Source: Fervidobacterium changbaicum
GTDB taxonomy: Bacteria > Thermotogota > Thermotogae > Thermotogales > Fervidobacteriaceae
Length of the DNA: 64,000 nucleotides
Direction: 5' to 3'
NCBI RefSeq assembly: GCF_004117075.1
Contig: NZ_CP026721.1
Coordinates: forward strand, 434,001 to 498,000
The translations under genes and the position numbers were made by a program. Shown piece after piece: positions 9,803 to 23,751 of the stretch (position 1 is the stretch's first letter; every line of letters begins with the position of its first letter). A model generated the notes under the pieces. That model ran no database searches. It saw nothing but the letters and a program-made list of their open reading frames with translations, and had not been told where the DNA came from.

Positions 9803-10606
9803 GTGGATAAGCGAGTCAGAGAAGCATATGAGTACATAGCTTCAAAAATTTCTTTAAAACCAAAGATAGCACTTATACTTGGGTCCGGTTTAGGTTTCTT
9901 AGCAAATGAAGTGAAAAACGCCCAACATATTAGCTACAAGGATATTCCGCATTTTCCATACTCCACTGCCCCTGGTCATGAAGGAAAATTGGTCTTTGGG
10001 GAGCTTTTTGGAAAAGAGGTTGTTGTTTTAAGTGGAAGGTTTCATATATACGAGGGTTGGAATCCCACTGATATAAAACTTGTCATTCACACATTGAAGC
10101 TTCTTGGAATTGAACGCATGCTTGTCACAAATGCAGCGGGTGCGATAAACACAAGTTACACTCCGGGAGACATAGTCATGGTTAAAGACGTTATCAACCT
10201 TATGTTTAGAAATCCACTCAGAGGACCAAACGATGAAGATATAGGTCCAAGATTTCCAGATATGTTAGGTGCTTTTGACAGAGATTGGATGGAGAAAGTG
10301 AAGGAAGTTTTCCCGGAAATGAAAGAAGGTGTTTATATTGCAGTAACAGGTCCTACGTACGAAACTCCCGCTGAAATAAAGGCTTTTAGAAAATTAGGAG
10401 CGGACTTGGTAGGTATGTCAACGGTACCGGAATTGATTGTCTGTGCACATAGTGGGATAAAAGCCTTGGTGTTTTCTTGTGCAACAAATATGGCGGCTGG
10501 AGTACTTGAACAGCCTTTATCACACGAAGAGGTCGTTGAAGTTGCTAACAAGGTTAAAGAAAAGTTTATTGAAGTAGTTAGAAAGGCTTTGGAGGTGCTG
10601 GAATGA
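9803..10606 (+). CDS. punA: purine nucleoside phosphorylase
   Basis: This 267-residue enzyme cleaves purine nucleosides with phosphate, in salvage. Family blocks are ILGSGLGFLANEV (phosphate-binding loop), PGHEGKLVFG, LSGRFHIYEGW, VTNAAGAIN, GPTYETPAEI and the base-binding CATNMAAG region. It belongs to the trimeric type. The GTG start was chosen because GGGAGG ends seven bases upstream. The TTG fifteen bases earlier overlaps that site. Its stop overlaps the next start as ATGA, coupling it to the DHH phosphoesterase. Confidence 0.95.
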   Translation: MDKRVREAYEYIASKISLKPKIALILGSGLGFLANEVKNAQHISYKDIPHFPYSTAPGHEGKLVFGELFGKEVVVLSGRFHIYEGWNPTDIKLVIHTLKLLGIERMLVTNAAGAINTSYTPGDIVMVKDVINLMFRNPLRGPNDEDIGPRFPDMLGAFDRDWMEKVKEVFPEMKEGVYIAVTGPTYETPAEIKAFRKLGADLVGMSTVPELIVCAHSGIKALVFSCATNMAAGVLEQPLSHEEVVEVANKVKEKFIEVVRKALEVLE

Positions 10607-11601
10607 ATCGTGATTTTCTCTCGATAGTAGGAGAGCTAAGTCTAGCTAAGAAAATATTGGTTGTTGGACATATTATGCCTGATGGTGATGACATAAGTTC
10701 TGTCCTAAGTGCTGCACTGGGACTGAGAAGATTGGGAAAAGAAGTAATGTCTGGTATAGACTGGAGGATCCCATGGTATTTCTACGAGTTCGAAGAAACG
10801 AACCTCATAAAAAGTTACGATGAGATTATCCAAACCGGCTTTCAACCAGACTTTGTCCTCGTACTCGATGCATCGAGTCCTGATAGAATAGGACGATTTC
10901 AGGAGTTTCTCAAGAAGATTAACTCTGCGGTGGTTGACCACCATGGTACCAATACACTCTTTGGTACGCTTAACTGGGTTGATACGAAATTCGGCTCCAC
11001 AGCCCAGATGGTTCTCAGGCTCAATACAGAACTTGGTGTGCCGTACGATGGAAGGCTTGCAACTATTAATTTAATGGGGATAGCTACTGACACGGGCTTT
11101 TTCAGGTATTCGAATGCTGACGAAATTGTTTTTTCGGACGCTACAAAACTAGTTTCTATGGGTGGGAAATCGTATTTGGTTTCAAGGATTTTTGAAAACA
11201 AGAGAATAGAGCAATTCAAGTTACTTTCAACAATGGTTGAACACATTCAGACAGAAAACAACGGACAAATCGTTTATTCTTACCTCTCTAAGAAGGATTA
11301 CGAGTCAAATAACTGTACAGAAGACGATAGCGGTGGTTTTGTTGGTGAACTGCGTTCAATACAGGGTGTAGAGCTTGCAATCTTCCTTTCTGAATACGAA
11401 CACAATGAAGTGCACATAAGCTTTAGGTCAAAAGATTGGTTTGACTGTAGCAAATTAGCAGTTTTACTGGGTGGTGGAGGACATCCACGAGCTGCAGGTT
11501 GTACACTAAAAGGAGAATTACCAGTTATAATAGAAGAAGTAATTAGGGAAGCTAAGATCATGTATGATGCCCAACTGAAGGCGTTAGAAGGTGTTCACTA
11601 A
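10603..11601 (+). CDS. nrnA: DHH/DHHA1 phosphoesterase (NrnA-like)
   Basis: This 332-residue phosphoesterase probably degrades nanoRNA, pAp or linear cyclic-dinucleotide products such as pGpG. The DHH domain has GHIMPDGDD (residues 22-30), VLDASS and VVDHHGTN near 108-115. The DHHA1 domain ends with GGGGHPRAAGC. These are the metal- and nucleotide-binding motifs of the family. It is coupled to punA. Its position directly before two GGDEF proteins would suit a role in clearing c-di-GMP breakdown products, but that link is inference. Confidence 0.9.
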   Translation: MNRDFLSIVGELSLAKKILVVGHIMPDGDDISSVLSAALGLRRLGKEVMSGIDWRIPWYFYEFEETNLIKSYDEIIQTGFQPDFVLVLDASSPDRIGRFQEFLKKINSAVVDHHGTNTLFGTLNWVDTKFGSTAQMVLRLNTELGVPYDGRLATINLMGIATDTGFFRYSNADEIVFSDATKLVSMGGKSYLVSRIFENKRIEQFKLLSTMVEHIQTENNGQIVYSYLSKKDYESNNCTEDDSGGFVGELRSIQGVELAIFLSEYEHNEVHISFRSKDWFDCSKLAVLLGGGGHPRAAGCTLKGELPVIIEEVIREAKIMYDAQLKALEGVH

Positions 11602-11679
11602 TTCGTTAAGTCTTTATTCAGCATTTTTTGTTTTCCGCGCACCAAGTTTGAGAAAGAATTTTGGCTGGGGGGGTTTTTC

Positions 11680-14600
11680 ACGTCATTATCAGGACGAGAG
11701 ACTTTTCTAAAGCGCTTTATAGGTACTGAGCAAGTTATCGAAAAAGATGAGGGAAGATTCCTAGAGTGGACTTCTGATCGGAACATTGTCGAGGATTTCC
11801 GAGAGTTCGTTGTACATATAAATAGTTTTGCATTTTCTAAACGGTTCATTCTTCCCGCTATGATTTTACCTTCCGAGGCCGAAATATCGGTACTCTTCAG
11901 ATATTCAGGAGAGAAACATATCGCAGAATGTATCAATGAAGAAATAAGACTACGAGAGCTTACAGATGAAGAGCGTGAAAAGCTTATCGAGGCAATTCTA
12001 AGGATTGCCAGGTTTGTTTTACTTGGTAACATTCCTCCTTTTCCAGCCTTTAGCGTCTTTGATGTGTTTACATTTGCTGGTGAATTCTTTTTCAAACCAC
12101 CTGTGCTTTTTAAATACGATTTCTACAAAACACTTTATCATGATGTGTTGAGCCGTGAAAACAGCGAAATAGGTAAGTACATATTTATCGACAAGGAATA
12201 TCTCAAGAAAGGTCAATATGATAAATACTCAACATTACGCATTTTAGCAAATTTTATTGAGATTTTCGATATCGCCAATAAATATGCAACTATAATTTCA
12301 AGAATGCGAGATGGAACTATTAGAGTCGATGAATTGGAGAAAGATAGACTGGATGAGAAAGTTTTATTTGCTTTAGTTTCAGAAATTGAGCAACGATGTG
12401 ATTCGAGTGCACAGGAGGGAAAAAAGTATTTGGAGATACTTGTCGATACAAGTAGTTATTATCGTTTATTCAAAGACTACGTAGCCAGAATTGACCGGTA
12501 CCTTGCAGATCGTGGAAGGACTCTACTTTACATCGGCGATGATTTTACAAACATTGCACGACAAATCTTATGGAAAAACCGTGAGAAGTTCTCAACTGTG
12601 GAGTTTTCAGAACTTATTAAATGTCTGTATATAAGCTGTAAATTCGACACGATAATCACTGAACTTTTAAAGATTTTTAGAACGCTAAGTCCTTTGGTAG
12701 TTGTGGTTAAAGATACTGTGGAGCCTCACTACCTGATACGACGATTCTTAGAAATCTTAAAGCATTCTGAAATAAAGACTGTTGTTTTAGCGTTCAAATC
12801 AATCAATCCCGACATGGTGGTCAGTGTACCAACTGCAAATATTACATTACCCGTCTTGCCTTTTGAAGAATTAAAGACGAAGCTTTCGGAGCTTAAAGAC
12901 GGAGAGGTGCTAATAAGGGCTCTCGGATTAGAATTTTCAAGAGATGATGTGTTACTCTTCAGCAGGGTTACGGGTAAGGATGGAGAAAGTATTTTGAAAA
13001 ACTTAATGAAAGAAAAAATAGTTCGTTCCGACGATGGTGAATACGTTGTTAACATCGATCCTAAGCTAGGTGACCTGTTATTAGGTGATGAAAAAAGGGA
13101 AACAAGCAACGAGTTAAAACAGCTGCACGAAGCAATGGCACAGGAATACAGAAAAATGATAAGTCCCTATAGTCATTCCTCTTTCAAGGCAGCTTGGCAC
13201 TATCTTTTGGCAGGTAAAGAAATCGCAGCTATTGTGGAATATTTGAGATTTGTTCGAAATGCTATGGATAGATATACTTTTTCACCTTCAGTACTTTCCG
13301 ATATATTGCAAAGAGCGTATTCAGTTCTTGAAAAAAATGGCAGAACTGATTCTTATGCATTCCATAGGATTAAACTGGAGCTTGAGTACCGCATAGGCGT
13401 ACGGTTAAATTTCACGAAGGCAAACTTACCAGACAAAATAATTTACGATTACTTAAGAGTACTTGATATCTTTCTTGAAGAAAGATACCATGATTGTATT
13501 GAATACGCAGAAAAGATTCTCAAACACCAAAATCTAACAAAGTACAAATTTTTAAAACTTGCTTTAATCAAAGAGAGGGCACACGTTAACTATTACGATA
13601 AACTCTCAGACAAGGTAATAAGTGTCGAAGAAATCCAAAAACTGCCTATCTTGAACACAAAGTGGGCTGAATTAAAGGCAGAGTGGTTGTGGCAAATAGG
13701 AAACGCTCTAAGTCACACTAATCCTGAAAAGTCAATAAATTACCTGAGGGAAGCCTTGGAAATTTCCAGAGAATACGATTTGAAACATCTTCTTGTGAGA
13801 ATCCTTAACTCTTTTGGGATATCGTACGACGGTTATTTACTTTCGATTGTTTATTTCAAGGAAGCAATTAGAATCGCCGGAGAGATTGGCTACGTACACT
13901 ACAATTTATCTCCAAGGATGAACTTGGCTCGTGAACTTTTGTATTTCGGAAGGTTTGGAGAATTACTTAACGAACTCAAGTCGATGGAAGACCTTTCAAT
14001 TGGATATAGGTCACCTTCTAATACGGCTTTTTTGTATAGACTGTACGGTATGTTTCATTCATATTTGCGCCATTATGAAAAAGGTTGGGAGTACATTAAT
14101 AAAGCCCTTTTGGTAGAAAAGGAAAATGACTTACCGCACTCTTCTCTTAGGGCTATGATTCTTCACGAAATGCTTTGCGGAAAGAAAGAGAATGCTAGGG
14201 AATTGATAGAAAAATATCGGGATGATCCTGCAATCCATACACGAGCGTTTGAATACCTTGTGCGTATGATTATTGCCAGAGACGATGAAGAATTCTTTAG
14301 AGCTTGGTCAGAGTATGTAAGCTCTCCATACACACTTCTAAGGGAAGAGATACTTTACTTGTTCACTGACCAAATTTTCAGAGTTGATAAAGGTAAGTTA
14401 GAGGAGGAATTAAATAAATGGGATAGTTTTTACACTTCAGAGATGACAAAGCTTTCGCTCCTGTATGTGTTGTTGGCAAAATTAAGATATTACGAGTTGA
14501 TCCGCAATGAATTAAAATATAATATGACAAAGTTGCGATTGATGAAACTCATAAAACAGTTAGGAATAGAGGATGATTTTAGAGAATTTTTGGACGAAGA

Positions 14601-15498
14601 TTTAGAACCACAGGTGGACAATATACTTACAGGTTACGAGATAATTGAAACGTTGGAGATTCTAAGATCTTTGGATCAGAGAGTCAATTTGGATGAGTTT
14701 CTAAGGATTTTCTCAAATATTATCATCAGTATCTTCCGAACACAATCTGTTTTCATTTCAGTGACTGATAAAAGAGTTAATCTTTCATCAACTATTGGCT
14801 TCTTACCACAAAACAAACAGACAAATATTGTTAAACTTGATCCGCTTGAGGTTGGCATTTCTGGTAGTATAGACGAATACAGCGAATACATAATTTATTT
14901 AGCGGGTAATTTTTCTATTAAAAAAGAATCAGAAGTTGAAGAATTTTGGAACAAATTGACGTTGTTGGATGAACTCTTTTCAAATCAACTCAAAGGAATA
15001 ATATATAGAGAAAGAGCAATGAGAGATTCTCTAACAGGGCTGTACAATAGATGGAGGTTTACCCAGATCTTAAAAGAATACTTGGAAGAACCACAAGTTA
15101 AACTCAAGCAGAAAGAAATCAGTGTGTTCATGGCTGACATAGATGACTTTAAGAAGATCAACGACAATTACGGTCATATGAAAGGAGACGAAGTATTGAG
15201 AAATGTTGCAAAGATTTTACAAGAAGAGGTGGAAGGTTTTGGAATTGTAGCTAGATACGGTGGAGAGGAATTTGTTGGGGTGTTGGAAGCGGAAAAGAAC
15301 AAGTGTTTGGAGGTTTGCGAAAATATCCGGCGCAGGTTGGAAATGGCTTCCGAAAGTATCTTTGGTTTTAGGGTTACTCTCAGCTTTGGTATTTCTTCCT
15401 CTCTGGAAAGGTCAACCATTACCGAAATCTTGGGTCTTGCCGATCAGAGATTGTACAAAGCCAAGGAAATGGGAAAGAACAGAGTTTGCATCGAATGA
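11680..15498 (+). CDS. giant signalling protein: degenerate kinase/NTPase, TPR-like helices, GGDEF (paralogue 1)
   Basis: This 1272-residue protein aligns along its length with the next gene. The N-terminal 180 residues match the neighbour's kinase-like domain (IFIDKEYLKKG against IFIAPEFYKGE) but lack kinase motifs. The NTPase region has lost its P-loop (LLYIGDDFTNIAR where the neighbour has a Walker A). A long helical, TPR-like region follows. The C-terminal diguanylate cyclase domain has ADIDDFKKINDNYGH and GGEEF at residues 1194-1198, but no RxxD inhibitory site upstream of it. Homology continues upstream of the first ATG (11860), with no stop back to 11601. A GGGGGGG site ends six bases before ACG at 11680, the start proposed here. 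If ACG is not used, the product starts at 11860. Confidence 0.8.
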   Translation, partial: TSLSGRETFLKRFIGTEQVIEKDEGRFLEWTSDRNIVEDFREFVVHINSFAFSKRFILPAMILPSEAEISVLFRYSGEKHIAECINEEIRLRELTDEEREKLIEAILRIARFVLLGNIPPFPAFSVFDVFTFAGEFFFKPPVLFKYDFYKTLYHDVLSRENSEIGKYIFIDKEYLKKGQYDKYSTLRILANFIEIFDIANKYATIISRMRDGTIRVDELEKDRLDEKVLFALVSEIEQRCDSSAQEGKKYLEILVDTSSYYRLFKDYVARIDRYLADRGRTLLYIGDDFTNIARQILWKNREKFSTVEFSELIKCLYISCKFDTIITELLKIFRTLSPLVVVVKDTVEPHYLIRRFLEILKHSEIKTVVLAFKSINPDMVVSVPTANITLPVLPFEELKTKLSELKDGEVLIRALGLEFSRDDVLLFSRVTGKDGESILKNLMKEKIVRSDDGEYVVNIDPKLGDLLLGDEKRETSNELKQLHEAMAQEYRKMISPYSHSSFKAAWHYLLAGKEIAAIVEYLRFVRNAMDRYTFSPSVLSDILQRAYSVLEKNGRTDSYAFHRIKLELEYRIGVRLNFTKANLPDKIIYDYLRVLDIFLEERYHDCIEYAEKILKHQNLTKYKFLKLALIKERAHVNYYDKLSDKVISVEEIQKLPILNTKWAELKAEWLWQIGNALSHTNPEKSINYLREALEISREYDLKHLLVRILNSFGISYDGYLLSIVYFKEAIRIAGEIGYVHYNLSPRMNLARELLYFGRFGELLNELKSMEDLSIGYRSPSNTAFLYRLYGMFHSYLRHYEKGWEYINKALLVEKENDLPHSSLRAMILHEMLCGKKENARELIEKYRDDPAIHTRAFEYLVRMIIARDDEEFFRAWSEYVSSPYTLLREEILYLFTDQIFRVDKGKLEEELNKWDSFYTSEMTKLSLLYVLLAKLRYYELIRNELKYNMTKLRLMKLIKQLGIEDDFREFLDEDLEPQVDNILTGYEIIETLEILRSLDQRVNLDEFLRIFSNIIISIFRTQSVFISVTDKRVNLSSTIGFLPQNKQTNIVKLDPLEVGISGSIDEYSEYIIYLAGNFSIKKESEVEEFWNKLTLLDELFSNQLKGIIYRERAMRDSLTGLYNRWRFTQILKEYLEEPQVKLKQKEISVFMADIDDFKKINDNYGHMKGDEVLRNVAKILQEEVEGFGIVARYGGEEFVGVLEAEKNKCLEVCENIRRRLEMASESIFGFRVTLSFGISSSLERSTITEILGLADQRLYKAKEMGKNRVCIE

Positions 15499-15541
15499 AA
15501 AACAAATTAAAACTCTATGCCTACAGGAGGCGTAAAGTACT

Positions 15542-18500
15542 GTGGAGATATTGGAATATCTAGGGGATACGTACTGGAGTAGTGATTACCTTGTTGAAAT
15601 AAACGGATACAAAAAAATTGCCAAATTTGTCGATAAGAAATTGATTCACAATCGAGCTGAGGTCATTTTACGTTCAGATTTGGCGCGAAGTATCAGTGGA
15701 ATTTTGGTTCCAGAAGATTTTTACTTTGAGGAGCGTGAGAGAGATATTTTCGTGTACGATATATCATCTTACAAAACAATTAATCAGATTACTCAAGAAC
15801 ACCTTCAGATAATTGTTCCGCAGTTATTCTCTATTTTAAAAACAGTTTTGCATATTCCAAAGCTTTACATCCCATACATTGGCTTGGATGATATTATAGT
15901 AGCGGATGACGAAGTGAGAATCTTTCTTCCTTTGATACAGTCTTTAGAAAGTGTACACCAGATGAGCGAAAGGTGGAAAATTTTCATAGCTCCAGAATTT
16001 TACAAGGGTGAGAGCTCAGACAAATCAACGATCTATGTTTTTGGAAAATTGATTTACGAATTAATCAACAACTCTGAAGTTAAAAAAGTAGTTGAACCAA
16101 TGATAGTAGAAGACGTATCCAAAAGAGAATTCACCGAGGAAATTCCCTTCCACAACGTTCTACCTTCAAAAAAGATACTGACTGTAAGAAGGATAGTGAG
16201 AGATGAGGAAAAGGAACTAATAGATTTTATTAGTAATCCTGGAAAAAAGGAAAACTTCATAGGTGTGATAGGTCCTCAGAGAGTTGGTAAAACAACCACA
16301 ATAGAAAATCTCCAAAACTACTTCAGGCAAAGTGGGATACCTTTTCTCCATGTTATGAATGCTTCAGATTTGATTGCTCAGACGTTGCAAATCTCGTCGG
16401 AACGTATACCTGATAGTCTACTGACACGTCTAACTTATTGTTTAGAGAATGTTTGTTCGATCGACACAATCAGCGTAGATGTGGTAGAGGCGTTGAGCTA
16501 TCTGGATAAAGTTATTATTTTTGTTGATGATTACCACGAAGCCTCTGAGTTATTAAGAGCGTTCCTAAGAAGAATTGCAACATTAGAAACTTCAGGGAAG
16601 ATAAAAATTTTGGCATTTTCAGTAGAAGATTCGGAGGATTTTGAAGTAAGATTTGAACTCAAACCGTTCACCAAGGATATGATAAGAAGACTTTTGAATG
16701 AGTCTTTCTCAAAGGTGGAAAATGAAGATATCCTTGTTGATTGGCTGTACGGAGCCAGTGGAGGACTACCAGGATTGATTGTGGAAAATTTAAGATATCT
16801 CTATGAAAATGAAATATTAACAAAAGTTCAAGACCAATTTGTGTGCGATGTAGAAAGGTTGGTGGAACTTAACATCGAAACTGCGTTCGTTGATCGAATA
16901 CGTAAGTACGAACATGCATCGACAAAGTACCTTGCGATACTGGGACAAAAATTTACACTGGATGAAGTAAAGCATTTGGAAGAATTCTTAGGTATCGAAA
17001 TAAGCTTACAGGAACTCTTTGAAGATGGCATACTTTACAGGGAATACAGCAAGATACGTTTCACGCTGAGACATTACTGGCAAATTATGCACGAAGCTAT
17101 TCCCGTGGATGAAAGATTGGAGCTACACAAGAGGTTAGCTGCAATAACCAATGACTTTGAAAAGAAGGCTTGGCATTTAGAATTGTCAGGAAACAAAATA
17201 TCAGCAGCTGTAGCTTATCTTAAGTATGCCAACGAAATGCTTAATTATTATGCTTCTCCTTCTGTGATACACAGCATTTTACAAAAAGCCAAAAGGTTGA
17301 TTAATTCACGAGAATCATACGCTTTTCTCAAGCTAACATTGGAATTATTCGAAAGAACAGAAGACAAAACTTATGCAGAGGACATTGAGATTCCGGATAA
17401 GAATATATACACTTATCTGAAAGCACGCTACTATTATCTTTTGTACGATTACGATCAAGCAATAGAGATTTTGAAGAACTCAAAAATTGACCTTGGTCCA
17501 TTTGGTAATTTGAGGCGGGAGTTTCTCTTAATGTCATCCGAAGTAGCGCAATCTTCTAAAAGAAACGAATACTATGAAAGAGTAAAACAGATACTTGAAA
17601 ATCTTGATGAAACAAATCCCGTGCACGTGAGGTTGATTGTTGATATTTACATCTTCATATCTTTTATAGCGCGCTCCAGTTCTTCGAGAGTTATTGAATA
17701 CCTTAGAAAGGCTGAGAAACTCGCACTGGACTACAATATTGCTCACAAGCTTCCGTCAATTTACAATAATCTTGCACTCGGTGTTACGAATACAACGATT
17801 TCGATGGAGTACCTACAGAGGGCTGTAGAAGTCGCAGAAAGAATAGGACTGCCTGCCCGAAGTTACTTGGCAAGGTTAAATATGCTCTCGCATGCCCTTT
17901 ACGCTGGCAGAATAAAGGATTTCCTAGTTGGTATGGCGGAACTCATGCCAAAACTTGAAATGTTAGGGCTTAGGGATGAAATCATATTTGCTAATACAAT
18001 TGAGGCCTTCTATCATTCATATAACTTTGAATTGGAAAATGCACTCGAACACCTCGAATCTGTTGGAAAGCGTTTTGGTGTTGATATGTCTGCGGAAGTT
18101 TTGTCGGTGTACTTTCTGTCAAGAAATCTTGACAAGGCAAAAGAGCTTATACCGAAGGTTTTAGAAAGTGAGCAATTTGGAGAGGATACCAAAGAGATTG
18201 TAAGAGTTATATCTTCCTTGGAAAGTGGTGAATTCCCAGAAAAATGGAAACGCTACAGGGATTCTGGCGGAAAGTATTTCAGGGAAGAGATGGCAGCAGT
18301 TCTTGGCGAAGAACTTGCCAAGAGTGTTCCAGATGCTTTTAAGGAAGAACTTGAGTACTTAGAAACCAATTATGTGCTTGACGGTTCTTTATTGTCCCTT
18401 GCTATGGTCTACGAAGGATATGGTCATTACTATAAGGTTCTTGGAAATGAGTACAAATCCAGATCTTATTACTCAAAAGCACTAACATTGTATAAAGACA

Positions 18501-19492
18501 TCGGCATGGAAAACGCGGCTAAATCGTTAAGCAAAATTTACAACATTGAATCTGAAGAGTCTGAGAAGAGGGTTTCTTCAAAGCAATTAATTGCACTCTC
18601 TTATGATTTGCTTTCAAGCTTAAAAGCCATAGACCCAAAAACAGAACCAGAAAGACTTCTAAATTTCTTCTCAGCAAAGATATTATCAGTTATACCTGCA
18701 AGAACTATTTTACTTAAAGTGTACGATAGCGTTTTAGATAAGGCTTTTGAAACAGCCATAGGTGTTTCTGAAGGGGAAAAACCATCAAAGGAAACCTTTA
18801 GTACAATTCCCTTGGAAATTTATCTTATTGATAACGTTGATCAAAGTGCATCATACGAACTTTGGTTGTCAAATCCAAAAGCAAGATTTTCAGAAGACTA
18901 TAAGAAAGAGCTCTTGCCAATTCTTCAACTGCTCGAATACAGCTTCATTGCTGTTATGAAAGGAACGTTAACATGGCTGAGAAGCTTGATCGATCCGCTT
19001 ACCAAACTGTACACAAGATACCATTTCAGTGAGTTGCTTGAGCATCACTTTAACAAGGCAGTTTCCGAGAACGGAGAACTATGTGTTGTTATGTGCGACA
19101 TCGACAATTTTAAGAATATAAATGATACGTACGGGCATCTCACTGGTGACGAAGTATTGAAAGAGGTTGCAAGAATATTACGCGATAACGTCCGTTCAAC
19201 CGATGTTGTTGCCCGATTCGGTGGAGAGGAATTTGTACTCTTGTTCCCTTCGACTGGTAGAGAAGAAGCGCTTATAGTTGTGGAAAGATTGAGAAGGTTA
19301 ACAAGGGATATAACTAAATTCCCGTTCAAAATCACGCTGAGTTACGGGGTAGCCGTTTATCCACTCTGTAAGGTTAACAATCCAGAGGAATTAATTCAAA
19401 AGGCCGACGTAGCCTTGTACCACGCAAAGAATACCGGTAAGGACAAAATCGTTTTGTATTCGGAGGGAATGACGGGTGGATTGCATGCGTAA
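15542..19492 (+). CDS. giant signalling protein: pseudokinase, P-loop NTPase, TPR-like helices, GGDEF (paralogue 2)
   Basis: This 1316-residue protein starts with a kinase-like domain. APE occurs at residues 150-152, followed by the subdomain-IX-like IYVFGKLIYELI. The HRD and DFG positions are replaced (LYIPYIGLDDIIV, IFLPLI), so it is probably a pseudokinase. A STAND/AAA-type NTPase follows, with Walker A GPQRVGKTT at 244-252 and Walker B KVIIFVDDY. Long TPR-like helical repeats lead to a linker of possible GAF type and a GGDEF domain. That domain has CDIDNFKNINDTYGH, GGEEF at 1227-1231 and an intact RSTD inhibitory site five residues before it. Predicted output is c-di-GMP. The start is GTG with AGGAGG eleven bases upstream. 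Confidence 0.88.
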   Translation: MEILEYLGDTYWSSDYLVEINGYKKIAKFVDKKLIHNRAEVILRSDLARSISGILVPEDFYFEERERDIFVYDISSYKTINQITQEHLQIIVPQLFSILKTVLHIPKLYIPYIGLDDIIVADDEVRIFLPLIQSLESVHQMSERWKIFIAPEFYKGESSDKSTIYVFGKLIYELINNSEVKKVVEPMIVEDVSKREFTEEIPFHNVLPSKKILTVRRIVRDEEKELIDFISNPGKKENFIGVIGPQRVGKTTTIENLQNYFRQSGIPFLHVMNASDLIAQTLQISSERIPDSLLTRLTYCLENVCSIDTISVDVVEALSYLDKVIIFVDDYHEASELLRAFLRRIATLETSGKIKILAFSVEDSEDFEVRFELKPFTKDMIRRLLNESFSKVENEDILVDWLYGASGGLPGLIVENLRYLYENEILTKVQDQFVCDVERLVELNIETAFVDRIRKYEHASTKYLAILGQKFTLDEVKHLEEFLGIEISLQELFEDGILYREYSKIRFTLRHYWQIMHEAIPVDERLELHKRLAAITNDFEKKAWHLELSGNKISAAVAYLKYANEMLNYYASPSVIHSILQKAKRLINSRESYAFLKLTLELFERTEDKTYAEDIEIPDKNIYTYLKARYYYLLYDYDQAIEILKNSKIDLGPFGNLRREFLLMSSEVAQSSKRNEYYERVKQILENLDETNPVHVRLIVDIYIFISFIARSSSSRVIEYLRKAEKLALDYNIAHKLPSIYNNLALGVTNTTISMEYLQRAVEVAERIGLPARSYLARLNMLSHALYAGRIKDFLVGMAELMPKLEMLGLRDEIIFANTIEAFYHSYNFELENALEHLESVGKRFGVDMSAEVLSVYFLSRNLDKAKELIPKVLESEQFGEDTKEIVRVISSLESGEFPEKWKRYRDSGGKYFREEMAAVLGEELAKSVPDAFKEELEYLETNYVLDGSLLSLAMVYEGYGHYYKVLGNEYKSRSYYSKALTLYKDIGMENAAKSLSKIYNIESEESEKRVSSKQLIALSYDLLSSLKAIDPKTEPERLLNFFSAKILSVIPARTILLKVYDSVLDKAFETAIGVSEGEKPSKETFSTIPLEIYLIDNVDQSASYELWLSNPKARFSEDYKKELLPILQLLEYSFIAVMKGTLTWLRSLIDPLTKLYTRYHFSELLEHHFNKAVSENGELCVVMCDIDNFKNINDTYGHLTGDEVLKEVARILRDNVRSTDVVARFGGEEFVLLFPSTGREEALIVVERLRRLTRDITKFPFKITLSYGVAVYPLCKVNNPEELIQKADVALYHAKNTGKDKIVLYSEGMTGGLHA

Positions 19493-22285: not shown

Positions 22286-22308
22286 AGAGCAAATTGGCAA
22301 GTTCTGGA

Positions 22309-23751
22309 ATGGGAGAGATTCTTCTGGTCGGCGAGATTCGTTCTAAAAAACTATACATTTTTACAATTCTTCTTACATTATTAATGTTTTTATCACAGAC
22401 CTTATTTTCAATTACAGTCTACGCACCCAAGGGAAGCATGATTTACTTCAATGATCGACTCATGGGGATTGTGCAAAAGGACGCACTGAGTTTTACTGCA
22501 GAGTTACCAGGTGTCTTAAAAGTTGTCAAGCCTGGTTATATCCCGTATGAAGAAACAGTCACAGAGGATGCAACGATTACCGTTGAATTGTCATTACCGT
22601 CCTTTCTAAATATAAAATTAAACCCCGCCGGTGCAAGGATATTTGTTGATGGTAAAGCAATAAATAGTGATCTTGGTACGGGCATCGCAAGGTTTCAAAT
22701 AGGCTTCGGAATTCATGAAATTGTGGTACAAGCTCCTGAATATGCAACGAAGACATTAAAGGTAGAAGTCAGCCCATATGAAGAAAAAAATCTTGAAATA
22801 TCACTAAAAAGAACGGTAACACTCAAGCTAATCTCGGATAAAAGGATTGATAACGTCATCTTCAACGGAGAGACAATAAGCATCCCAACATCACTGGAGG
22901 TTACGCCTGGCAAGCACAAGATTTATTTACCAATCAATTTCTTGAAGAATATCCAGGAGTTTGAAGTTCCGTTCGTGGATGAGTATACCTATAAAGTTGA
23001 TTCTACACAGCTATACAAATTATCTATTGATGGAACTCCAGGTGGAGCGTACGCGTCCATTGCAGGTCAAGTTTTTAAGCTTCCAAACACGCTGCTGCTA
23101 CCAGAAAGCACTTATGAAGTTCGAATATACTCCGAAGGTTACGAAGAGTATGCAACAAAGGTTGATTTGAGAAAAGATTCCGTGATATTTTATAATCTAA
23201 AACCCAAGTCGGAGGTCTCTATTAGAACGTTCAAGGACGAATTAACAGTAGAGTACGATGGATATGAACGAAGTAATGTGGTTTTCAAAACGTGGTTTAC
23301 CACAATAAAGGACGCAACTGGAAACGTTGTTTGGTATGGCTTTAGTGACGGGACTATTAAGGATACTCCCAAGAGTATTCCTGTAATAATAAGCAAAGAC
23401 ATAGTTTGTGTAATAGATGGTAAGGTGTTTAAGGGGCCTACAATTTTGCAGGTGGCAAGTGGTTCAACAGTGCTTTTGTACGATCAAAGAAAAGGTAACA
23501 GCCAAGAGAAATTACAAGTTAACCGCACTACGGTTGTTGATTCTGAAGATAGGGTACTCGTGAACATCTACTCAAAAGATGCATACGAGGTATACTGGGA
23601 CGATAAATTCGTTGGAACTACGCCCATTTACTTCTTCGTAACAACTGCAGGCAAGCACAAGTTGGTATTTGTGAGAAATGACCTAAAAGTGGACGAAAAA
23701 ATTGTCGAAACCAAGAAAGGTCATCTCAATGAATTCTGTCCATCATTTTGA
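22309..23751 (+). CDS. secreted PEGA-domain protein
   Basis: This 480-residue protein has an N-terminal hydrophobic segment (LYIFTILLTLLMFLSQTLFS) that could be a signal peptide or anchor. Several beta-rich PEGA-like repeats follow, for example LNIKLNPAGARIFVDGKAI, an INVxFNGETI-like stretch near residue 195, YKLSIDGTPGGAYASIAG, and a final VYWDDKFVGTTPIYF. PEGA domains are extracytoplasmic modules often linked to S-layer or envelope proteins. The start is uncertain: ATG at 22309 has a poor ribosome binding site, and TTG at 22294 is an alternative. Confidence 0.85.
   Translation: MGEILLVGEIRSKKLYIFTILLTLLMFLSQTLFSITVYAPKGSMIYFNDRLMGIVQKDALSFTAELPGVLKVVKPGYIPYEETVTEDATITVELSLPSFLNIKLNPAGARIFVDGKAINSDLGTGIARFQIGFGIHEIVVQAPEYATKTLKVEVSPYEEKNLEISLKRTVTLKLISDKRIDNVIFNGETISIPTSLEVTPGKHKIYLPINFLKNIQEFEVPFVDEYTYKVDSTQLYKLSIDGTPGGAYASIAGQVFKLPNTLLLPESTYEVRIYSEGYEEYATKVDLRKDSVIFYNLKPKSEVSIRTFKDELTVEYDGYERSNVVFKTWFTTIKDATGNVVWYGFSDGTIKDTPKSIPVIISKDIVCVIDGKVFKGPTILQVASGSTVLLYDQRKGNSQEKLQVNRTTVVDSEDRVLVNIYSKDAYEVYWDDKFVGTTPIYFFVTTAGKHKLVFVRNDLKVDEKIVETKKGHLNEFCPSF

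Follow-up and report, generated by a model that had tools for sequence, protein, structure and literature searches.

What might a bacterium do with two adjacent giant proteins, each of which joins a kinase-like domain to a GGDEF domain, and why are there two of them? This question is raised by a 64,000-nucleotide stretch of the Fervidobacterium changbaicum chromosome (NZ_CP026721.1, positions 434,001 to 498,000; "the window" hereafter), in which the genes ORF1 (11680-15498) and ORF2 (15542-19492) lie in tandem on the forward strand. ORF2 was found to be an uninterrupted open reading frame of 1316 amino acids with a GTG start. The open ORF1 frame extends from 11602 to 15498; the earliest ATG, GTG or TTG codon in it lies at 11860 and would give 1212 residues, whereas about 1272 are obtained from an ACG codon at 11680. 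An earlier interpretation made from the DNA letters (the sequence-only reading) had proposed two tandem paralogues of about 1270 and 1316 residues, and comparison of the two bore this out, with 28% identity across ORF2 residues 517-1305 (E = 2e-69). The findings described below suggest that the two genes specify cytoplasmic signalling proteins, each made in one piece, of a family spread across the Thermotogota.

Domain composition of the ORF2-type proteins

In ORF2, the parts are arranged in the order pseudokinase, STAND NTPase, tetratricopeptide repeats (TPRs), small alpha/beta domain and GGEEF. The N-terminal domain (residues 1-215; 15542-16186) is missed by single-sequence searches, as neither PF00069 nor other Pfam models gave a significant match to single N-terminal domains, and comparison of folds was therefore required. 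An AlphaFold2 model of residues 1-232, built from nine sequences, had a mean predicted local distance difference test score (pLDDT) of 83.5 and displayed the strand and helix succession of a kinase. Foldseek comparison of this model with the PDB gave 1993 matches at E <= 10, of which the best 50 were all protein kinases (best E = 3e-8). Kinases also made up 25 of the 27 matches when a profile of 33 N-terminal domains was compared with PDB sequences, at weak E-values (best 0.025). The dead kinase fold of the sequence-only reading, which a structure that did not resemble a kinase was to have refuted, is thus upheld by the model, and the APE motif (residues 150-152), the YVFGKLIYEL helix and the replacement of HRD and DFG were all found in ORF2 as it had described them.

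Residues were mapped by equating the near-invariant Asp117 with Asn171 (protein kinase A numbering), an anchoring of our own made independently of structural superposition. This places residue 112 at the position of the catalytic Asp166, and Pro130, exactly 13 residues from Asp117, at that of the DFG Asp184. A census of 54 ORF2-type relatives and 11 ORF1-type (tandem) paralogues revealed no Asp at residue 112 in any protein of either type; residue 130 is Pro in 42 of the 54 and in all 11, and is Asp in none. The glycine-rich loop is missing from the N-terminal domains of the family. Of the 54 ORF2-type proteins, 53 have Lys or Arg at the beta-3 Lys position and 52 have Asp at the Asn171-equivalent position; APE is retained in most. 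By fold and residues, the domain is a predicted conserved pseudokinase, that is, a kinase fold without the catalytic residues. In Thermotoga-type members (L067, L068, L069, L074 and L075) the pseudokinase is shortened and lacks APE, a further degeneration. A 2005 survey lists for Thermotoga maritima one kinase-like protein, marked as lacking the catalytic Asp (PMC1262709). It might be argued that the domain retains an unusual mode of ATP binding or a chemistry other than protein phosphorylation, as in SelO-type pseudokinases, and so acts as an active input. The near-constant beta-3 Lys/Arg and Asp at the Asn171-equivalent position would fit this idea, as would the maintenance of the domain throughout the phylum and exclusively in this family; the loss of the glycine-rich loop and of both aspartates from every member, and the still shorter Thermotoga domains, argue against it, and we consider it improbable.

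A model of ORF2 residues 214-1145 (pLDDT 84.6) revealed an alpha/beta NTPase, a winged-helix region, a long series of helical hairpins and, last, a small alpha/beta domain with a linker helix behind it. Its best match in the PDB was 6mfv, the STAND protein PH0952 with its TPR sensor (E = 4.8e-11), followed in the ranking by MalT, plant NLR, Orc/Cdc6 and TPR proteins. The STAND NTPase core, from the nucleotide-binding domain to the winged-helix region, spans approximately residues 214-519 (16181-17098) and includes the Walker A motif GPQRVGKT (residues 244-251; 16271-16294) and the Walker B residues Asp329-Asp330 (16526-16531). Gly244, Gly249 and Lys250 of Walker A, Asp329 of Walker B and the Gly of the GxP motif are each present in all 54 ORF2-type relatives, the last as GLP at 408-411 in ORF2. 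The TPR-like repeats (about residues 520-1000; 17099-18541) were identified from helical pairs in the model and from matches to TPR structures. The small alpha/beta domain and linker helix (about residues 1013-1145; 18578-18976), placed by the secondary structure of the model, gave no Pfam match, and the domain is GAF-like by topology alone. From sequence and model together, ORF2-type proteins are predicted STAND-type NTPases with a TPR sensor, in agreement with the P-loop NTPase and TPR-like helices suggested earlier.

Both proteins end in a GGDEF domain (PF00990, E = 1e-37 to 1e-46), located at 15010-15489 in ORF1 (6.7e-38) and at 18983-19456 in ORF2 (2.7e-46). No GG[DE]EF, DxD or ND residue is missing from any ORF2-type protein in which the site can be read (49-51 of the 54, the remainder being cut off) or, with the motif as GGEEF, from any of the 10 readable ORF1-type proteins. 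The GGEEF motif of ORF2 lies at 19220-19234 and its feedback site, the I-site RxxD, is RSTD (19193-19204); the Arg of this site is present in 50 and the Asp in 49 readable ORF2-type relatives. With all catalytic residues in place, the output is a predicted diguanylate cyclase that would make cyclic di-GMP (c-di-GMP), as the sequence-only reading had also held, having noted an active-looking GGDEF domain in ORF2. The F. changbaicum genome encodes c-di-GMP effectors (PilZ) and hydrolases (EAL). Two copies of an EAL domain with identical scores were observed at 22913-23608 and 2245770-2246465 of the chromosome (G000:C1), each match with one TAG stop inside it, in an apparently duplicated region near both ends of the chromosome sequence.

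A profile of 29 ORF2-type proteins without their GGDEF domains matched 67 of 103 Thermotogota genomes, in some cases over the helical part alone, as in family f11. The N-terminal pseudokinase domain was found in 56 of the 103 genomes, and every match lay in an ORF1- or ORF2-type protein or a fragment of one. Members typically contain 1200-1400 residues with the order of parts unchanged. Its spread through the Thermotogota marks the protein as ancient and conserved in the phylum rather than a local oddity, and the rarity that the sequence-only reading had implied for the architecture does not hold; the combination of kinase, TPR and GGDEF was named for Clostridium thermocellum as early as 2005 (PMC1262709). 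A further profile, from an 11-member alignment, retrieved eight relatives, all from Thermotogota, and one ANME archaeal locus matched over residues 215-410 alone; a tblastn search of plasmids gave no relatives. True kinases of PF00069 occur in 27 of the 103 genomes, and a PF00069 search of the F. changbaicum genome gave no match at all. The f11 genomes (e.g. G056, G070, G080 and G099) carry relatives of about 900 residues without the pseudokinase, and real Ser/Thr kinases elsewhere. One ORF2-type gene (L070, G096:C12:186463-189916) is interrupted by several stops and is an apparent pseudogene.

ORF1 and its start codon

The kinase-like N-terminus had been described for the second paralogue, where it is indeed present; it is not the sole copy, since ORF1 carries the same domain (11716-12324), recognized by the family N-terminal profile with E = 3.3e-25 though ORF1 of the window was absent from that profile. 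The two paralogues are otherwise unequal, which the sequence-only reading had missed: ORF1 has no NTP-binding motif, no feedback site and an apparent ACG start. ORF1-type genes are confined to Fervidobacterium and one sister genus, and lie beside ORF2 wherever the contig allows this to be seen. In ORF1 the pseudokinase is followed by a degenerate NTPase-like region, TPRs and GGEEF. The N-terminal domain is kept in all 11 orthologues, the Walker A Lys in none. The I-site Asp is lost in all 10 orthologues with a readable C-terminus, while the catalytic GGDEF residues are all kept. Ten ORF1 copies formed a single, fully supported clade, which stands beside the ORF2-type proteins of the family taken as a whole, a placement that the long branch may affect. 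Between two close species, both the pseudokinase region and the GGDEF region gave a ratio of nonsynonymous to synonymous substitution rates (dN/dS) of about 0.2; the middle of the gene is nearly identical and gave no usable ratio. Because the ATP switch and the feedback site were lost jointly and the active site was kept, these findings point to a changed role of ORF1 rather than decay.

The coordinate given for the start of ORF1 by the sequence-only reading, 11680, is exactly that of the ACG codon (11680-11682), and comparison among species supports it. In seven of the 11 ORF1 orthologues (genomes G000, G004, G006, G007, G008, G009 and G013) no usable ATG, GTG or TTG start was found; each has a GGGG[GC]G Shine-Dalgarno sequence (GGGGGGG at 11667-11673 in the window) followed 5-7 nucleotides on by an in-frame ACG. 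G013 has an in-frame GTG farther upstream, ahead of the Shine-Dalgarno sequence. In G004, G008 and G009 a stop precedes the ACG by seven codons at most, too few for an upstream start to fit in. The codons around the ACG vary, yet the ACG is constant, although it accounts for just 20% of Thr codons in those window genes that were counted. The lineages are related, and the seven genomes are thus not seven independent events. The pattern GGGGGGN6ACG has two sites in the whole genome, the second of which contains an ATG. The first 60 codons of ORF1 are under purifying selection, with proportions of synonymous (pS) and nonsynonymous (pN) differences of 0.49 and 0.13 between two close species. Translation of ORF1 probably starts at ACG 11680. 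As far as the partial literature coverage extends, no ACG start on a bacterial chromosome was found, the matches listed being organelle, viral, eukaryotic and engineered cases alone.

Other accounts of the ORF1 start, and of ORF1 itself, have to be weighed against these data. Automatic calling of the frame places the start at ATG 11860, which would yield a truncated N-lobe. Homology to the pseudokinase domain, however, begins 144 nucleotides ahead of that codon, a Shine-Dalgarno sequence was not found before it (TTCTTCCCGCT), and the first canonical codon shifts from species to species, between codons 26 and 60 after the ACG (G000, G004 and G008), in a stretch that is itself under selection; a start at 11860 is accordingly judged unlikely. 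One could also imagine initiation at the TTG at 11648 in another frame, with -1 slippage into the main frame at GGGGGGGTTTTT, where G GGT TTT matches a slippery pattern. This arrangement is not conserved: the G run and the ACG are there in other species too, but a stop codon shortly precedes and the neighbouring bases differ. It is hardly credible. A broader alternative is that ORF1 arose by duplication and is now degenerating into a pseudogene, with the ACG as the relic of a lost start codon. The missing Walker A motif, I-site and canonical start, together with the long branch of the clade, would be expected of such a gene. Yet all complete copies are open over more than 1200 codons, the GGEEF, DxD and ND residues are intact in 10 of 10, the first 60 codons likewise show a dN/dS of about 0.2, and the ACG is itself conserved across the two genera, so that decay seems quite unlikely.

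Gene neighbourhood and proposed mechanism

The gene immediately upstream of ORF1 (10603-11601, forward strand) encodes a DHH/DHHA1 phosphodiesterase of the NrnA type, orthologous to TM1595 of T. maritima; its match to the NCBIfam NrnA model (1.6e-26) is under the cut-off of that model. The DHH protein beside an ORF2 orthologue in G031 matched PDB 5o1u (TM1595) over its full length with E = 1.5e-203. A DHH/DHHA1 gene lies directly upstream of the pair or single gene in most Thermotogales loci (families f1-f3), where a purine nucleoside phosphorylase often precedes it. RNase R is encoded next after the gene in two Pseudothermotoga-type loci, and a membrane pyrophosphatase adjoins the family gene in three f9 loci checked. 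The known activities of this enzyme class suggest that the DHH enzyme may clear pGpG: it could remove the linear dinucleotide left from c-di-GMP breakdown. An Rfam search of the window found no riboswitch near ORF1 or ORF2; its sole match was a cobalamin riboswitch at 2084-2254 on the reverse strand (RF00174, 96 bits). At 22294-23751 (forward strand) a 485-residue protein was observed with PEGA-like repeats (by eye), an N-terminal hydrophobic stretch and no NCBIfam match.

Diguanylate cyclases work as dimers, and multimerization would therefore be a natural way to switch on the GGEEF domains. MalT and PH0952 rest in an ADP-bound form, autoinhibited by contacts of the arm and sensor, and are active as ATP-bound multimers (PMC6468293). 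By analogy, ORF2 at rest would be an ADP-bound monomer kept closed by NTPase-TPR contacts. If the TPRs, the pseudokinase or both bound a ligand or a partner protein, ADP could be exchanged for ATP; the ATP-bound protein would multimerize and pair its C-terminal GGEEF domains as active dimers, and the c-di-GMP produced would limit further output by binding at the I-site. We infer such ligand-driven activation from these parallels. ORF1, which appears to have lost ATP binding of the ORF2 kind and the I-site while its active site is complete, would most likely be a low-abundance partner recruited to ORF2 assemblies, adding cyclase activity without a feedback limit, its dose held low through translation from ACG. 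Taken as a whole, an ATP-gated, oligomerizing c-di-GMP switch with a poorly expressed partner lacking switch and feedback is the account we favour, with moderate confidence. A more specific version, in which the conserved natural ACG start keeps the switch-less, feedback-free cyclase at a low level compared with its ATP-gated, feedback-inhibited paralogue, in mixed assemblies with the pseudokinase as scaffold, is proposed only tentatively.

Several observations weigh against parts of this proposal. The STAND assignment depends on fold and motifs, and the NTPase Pfam scores are under the curated cut-offs. In four of the 11 ORF1 orthologues (G001, G002, G003 and G005) a TTG, GTG or ATG lies near the Shine-Dalgarno sequence or the expected start, and ACG is thus not strictly required. 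Most Thermotogota carry the ORF2 type alone, which indicates that the partner is unnecessary for basic function, and ORF1 could act as an independent cyclase or as a decoy. Finally, the family persists in genomes without a DHH neighbour and the adjacency is gone outside the Thermotogales, so the DHH link may be positional alone.

Known systems and significance

HstK-type proteins of cyanobacteria comprise a kinase, an NTPase, a GAF domain and a histidine kinase. In general plan, ORF2 resembles them in the order of kinase, NTPase, helical region and signalling output; it differs in its dead kinase domain and its C-terminal GGDEF, and no histidine kinase family was matched. With MalT and PH0952, ORF2 shares the nucleotide-binding domain, winged helix, arm and TPR sensor, but their effectors are DNA-binding domains, whereas ORF2 has a pseudokinase in front and a predicted diguanylate cyclase behind. 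The canonical diguanylate cyclases PleD, WspR and T. maritima TM1788 have the GGEEF, DxD and I-site of ORF2 and a different input module; ORF1 differs further in having no I-site. The Mycobacterium tuberculosis protein that joins a kinase to a MalT-like region, presumably PknK, has both of these parts in common with ORF2, but its kinase is active and it has no GGDEF domain. In the 2005 survey, this protein is described as a kinase followed by the MalT-like region (PMC1262709). The same survey, by Krupa and Srinivasan, reports an 1826-residue Clostridium thermocellum protein with a kinase, six TPRs and GGDEF (PMC1262709). Compared by description alone, it resembles ORF2 in uniting kinase, helical repeats and GGDEF in one giant protein. 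It is larger, comes from outside the Thermotogota, has no NTPase named in the survey, and is listed there among catalytic kinases, unlike the Thermotogota proteins, which lack the catalytic Asp.

New here are the conservation of a dead kinase across the Thermotogota, the probable use of ACG as the ORF1 start codon and the presumed division of labour between the tandem paralogues. Across a deep-branching phylum of thermophiles, whose genomes often lack any recognizable Ser/Thr kinase, c-di-GMP synthesis would be directly preceded by a STAND switch and a conserved pseudokinase. The pair may serve as a natural experiment, in which one cyclase has an ATP switch and feedback and the other neither. 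If the conserved ACG start is real, a bacterial chromosome would supply a clear natural example of initiation at this codon.

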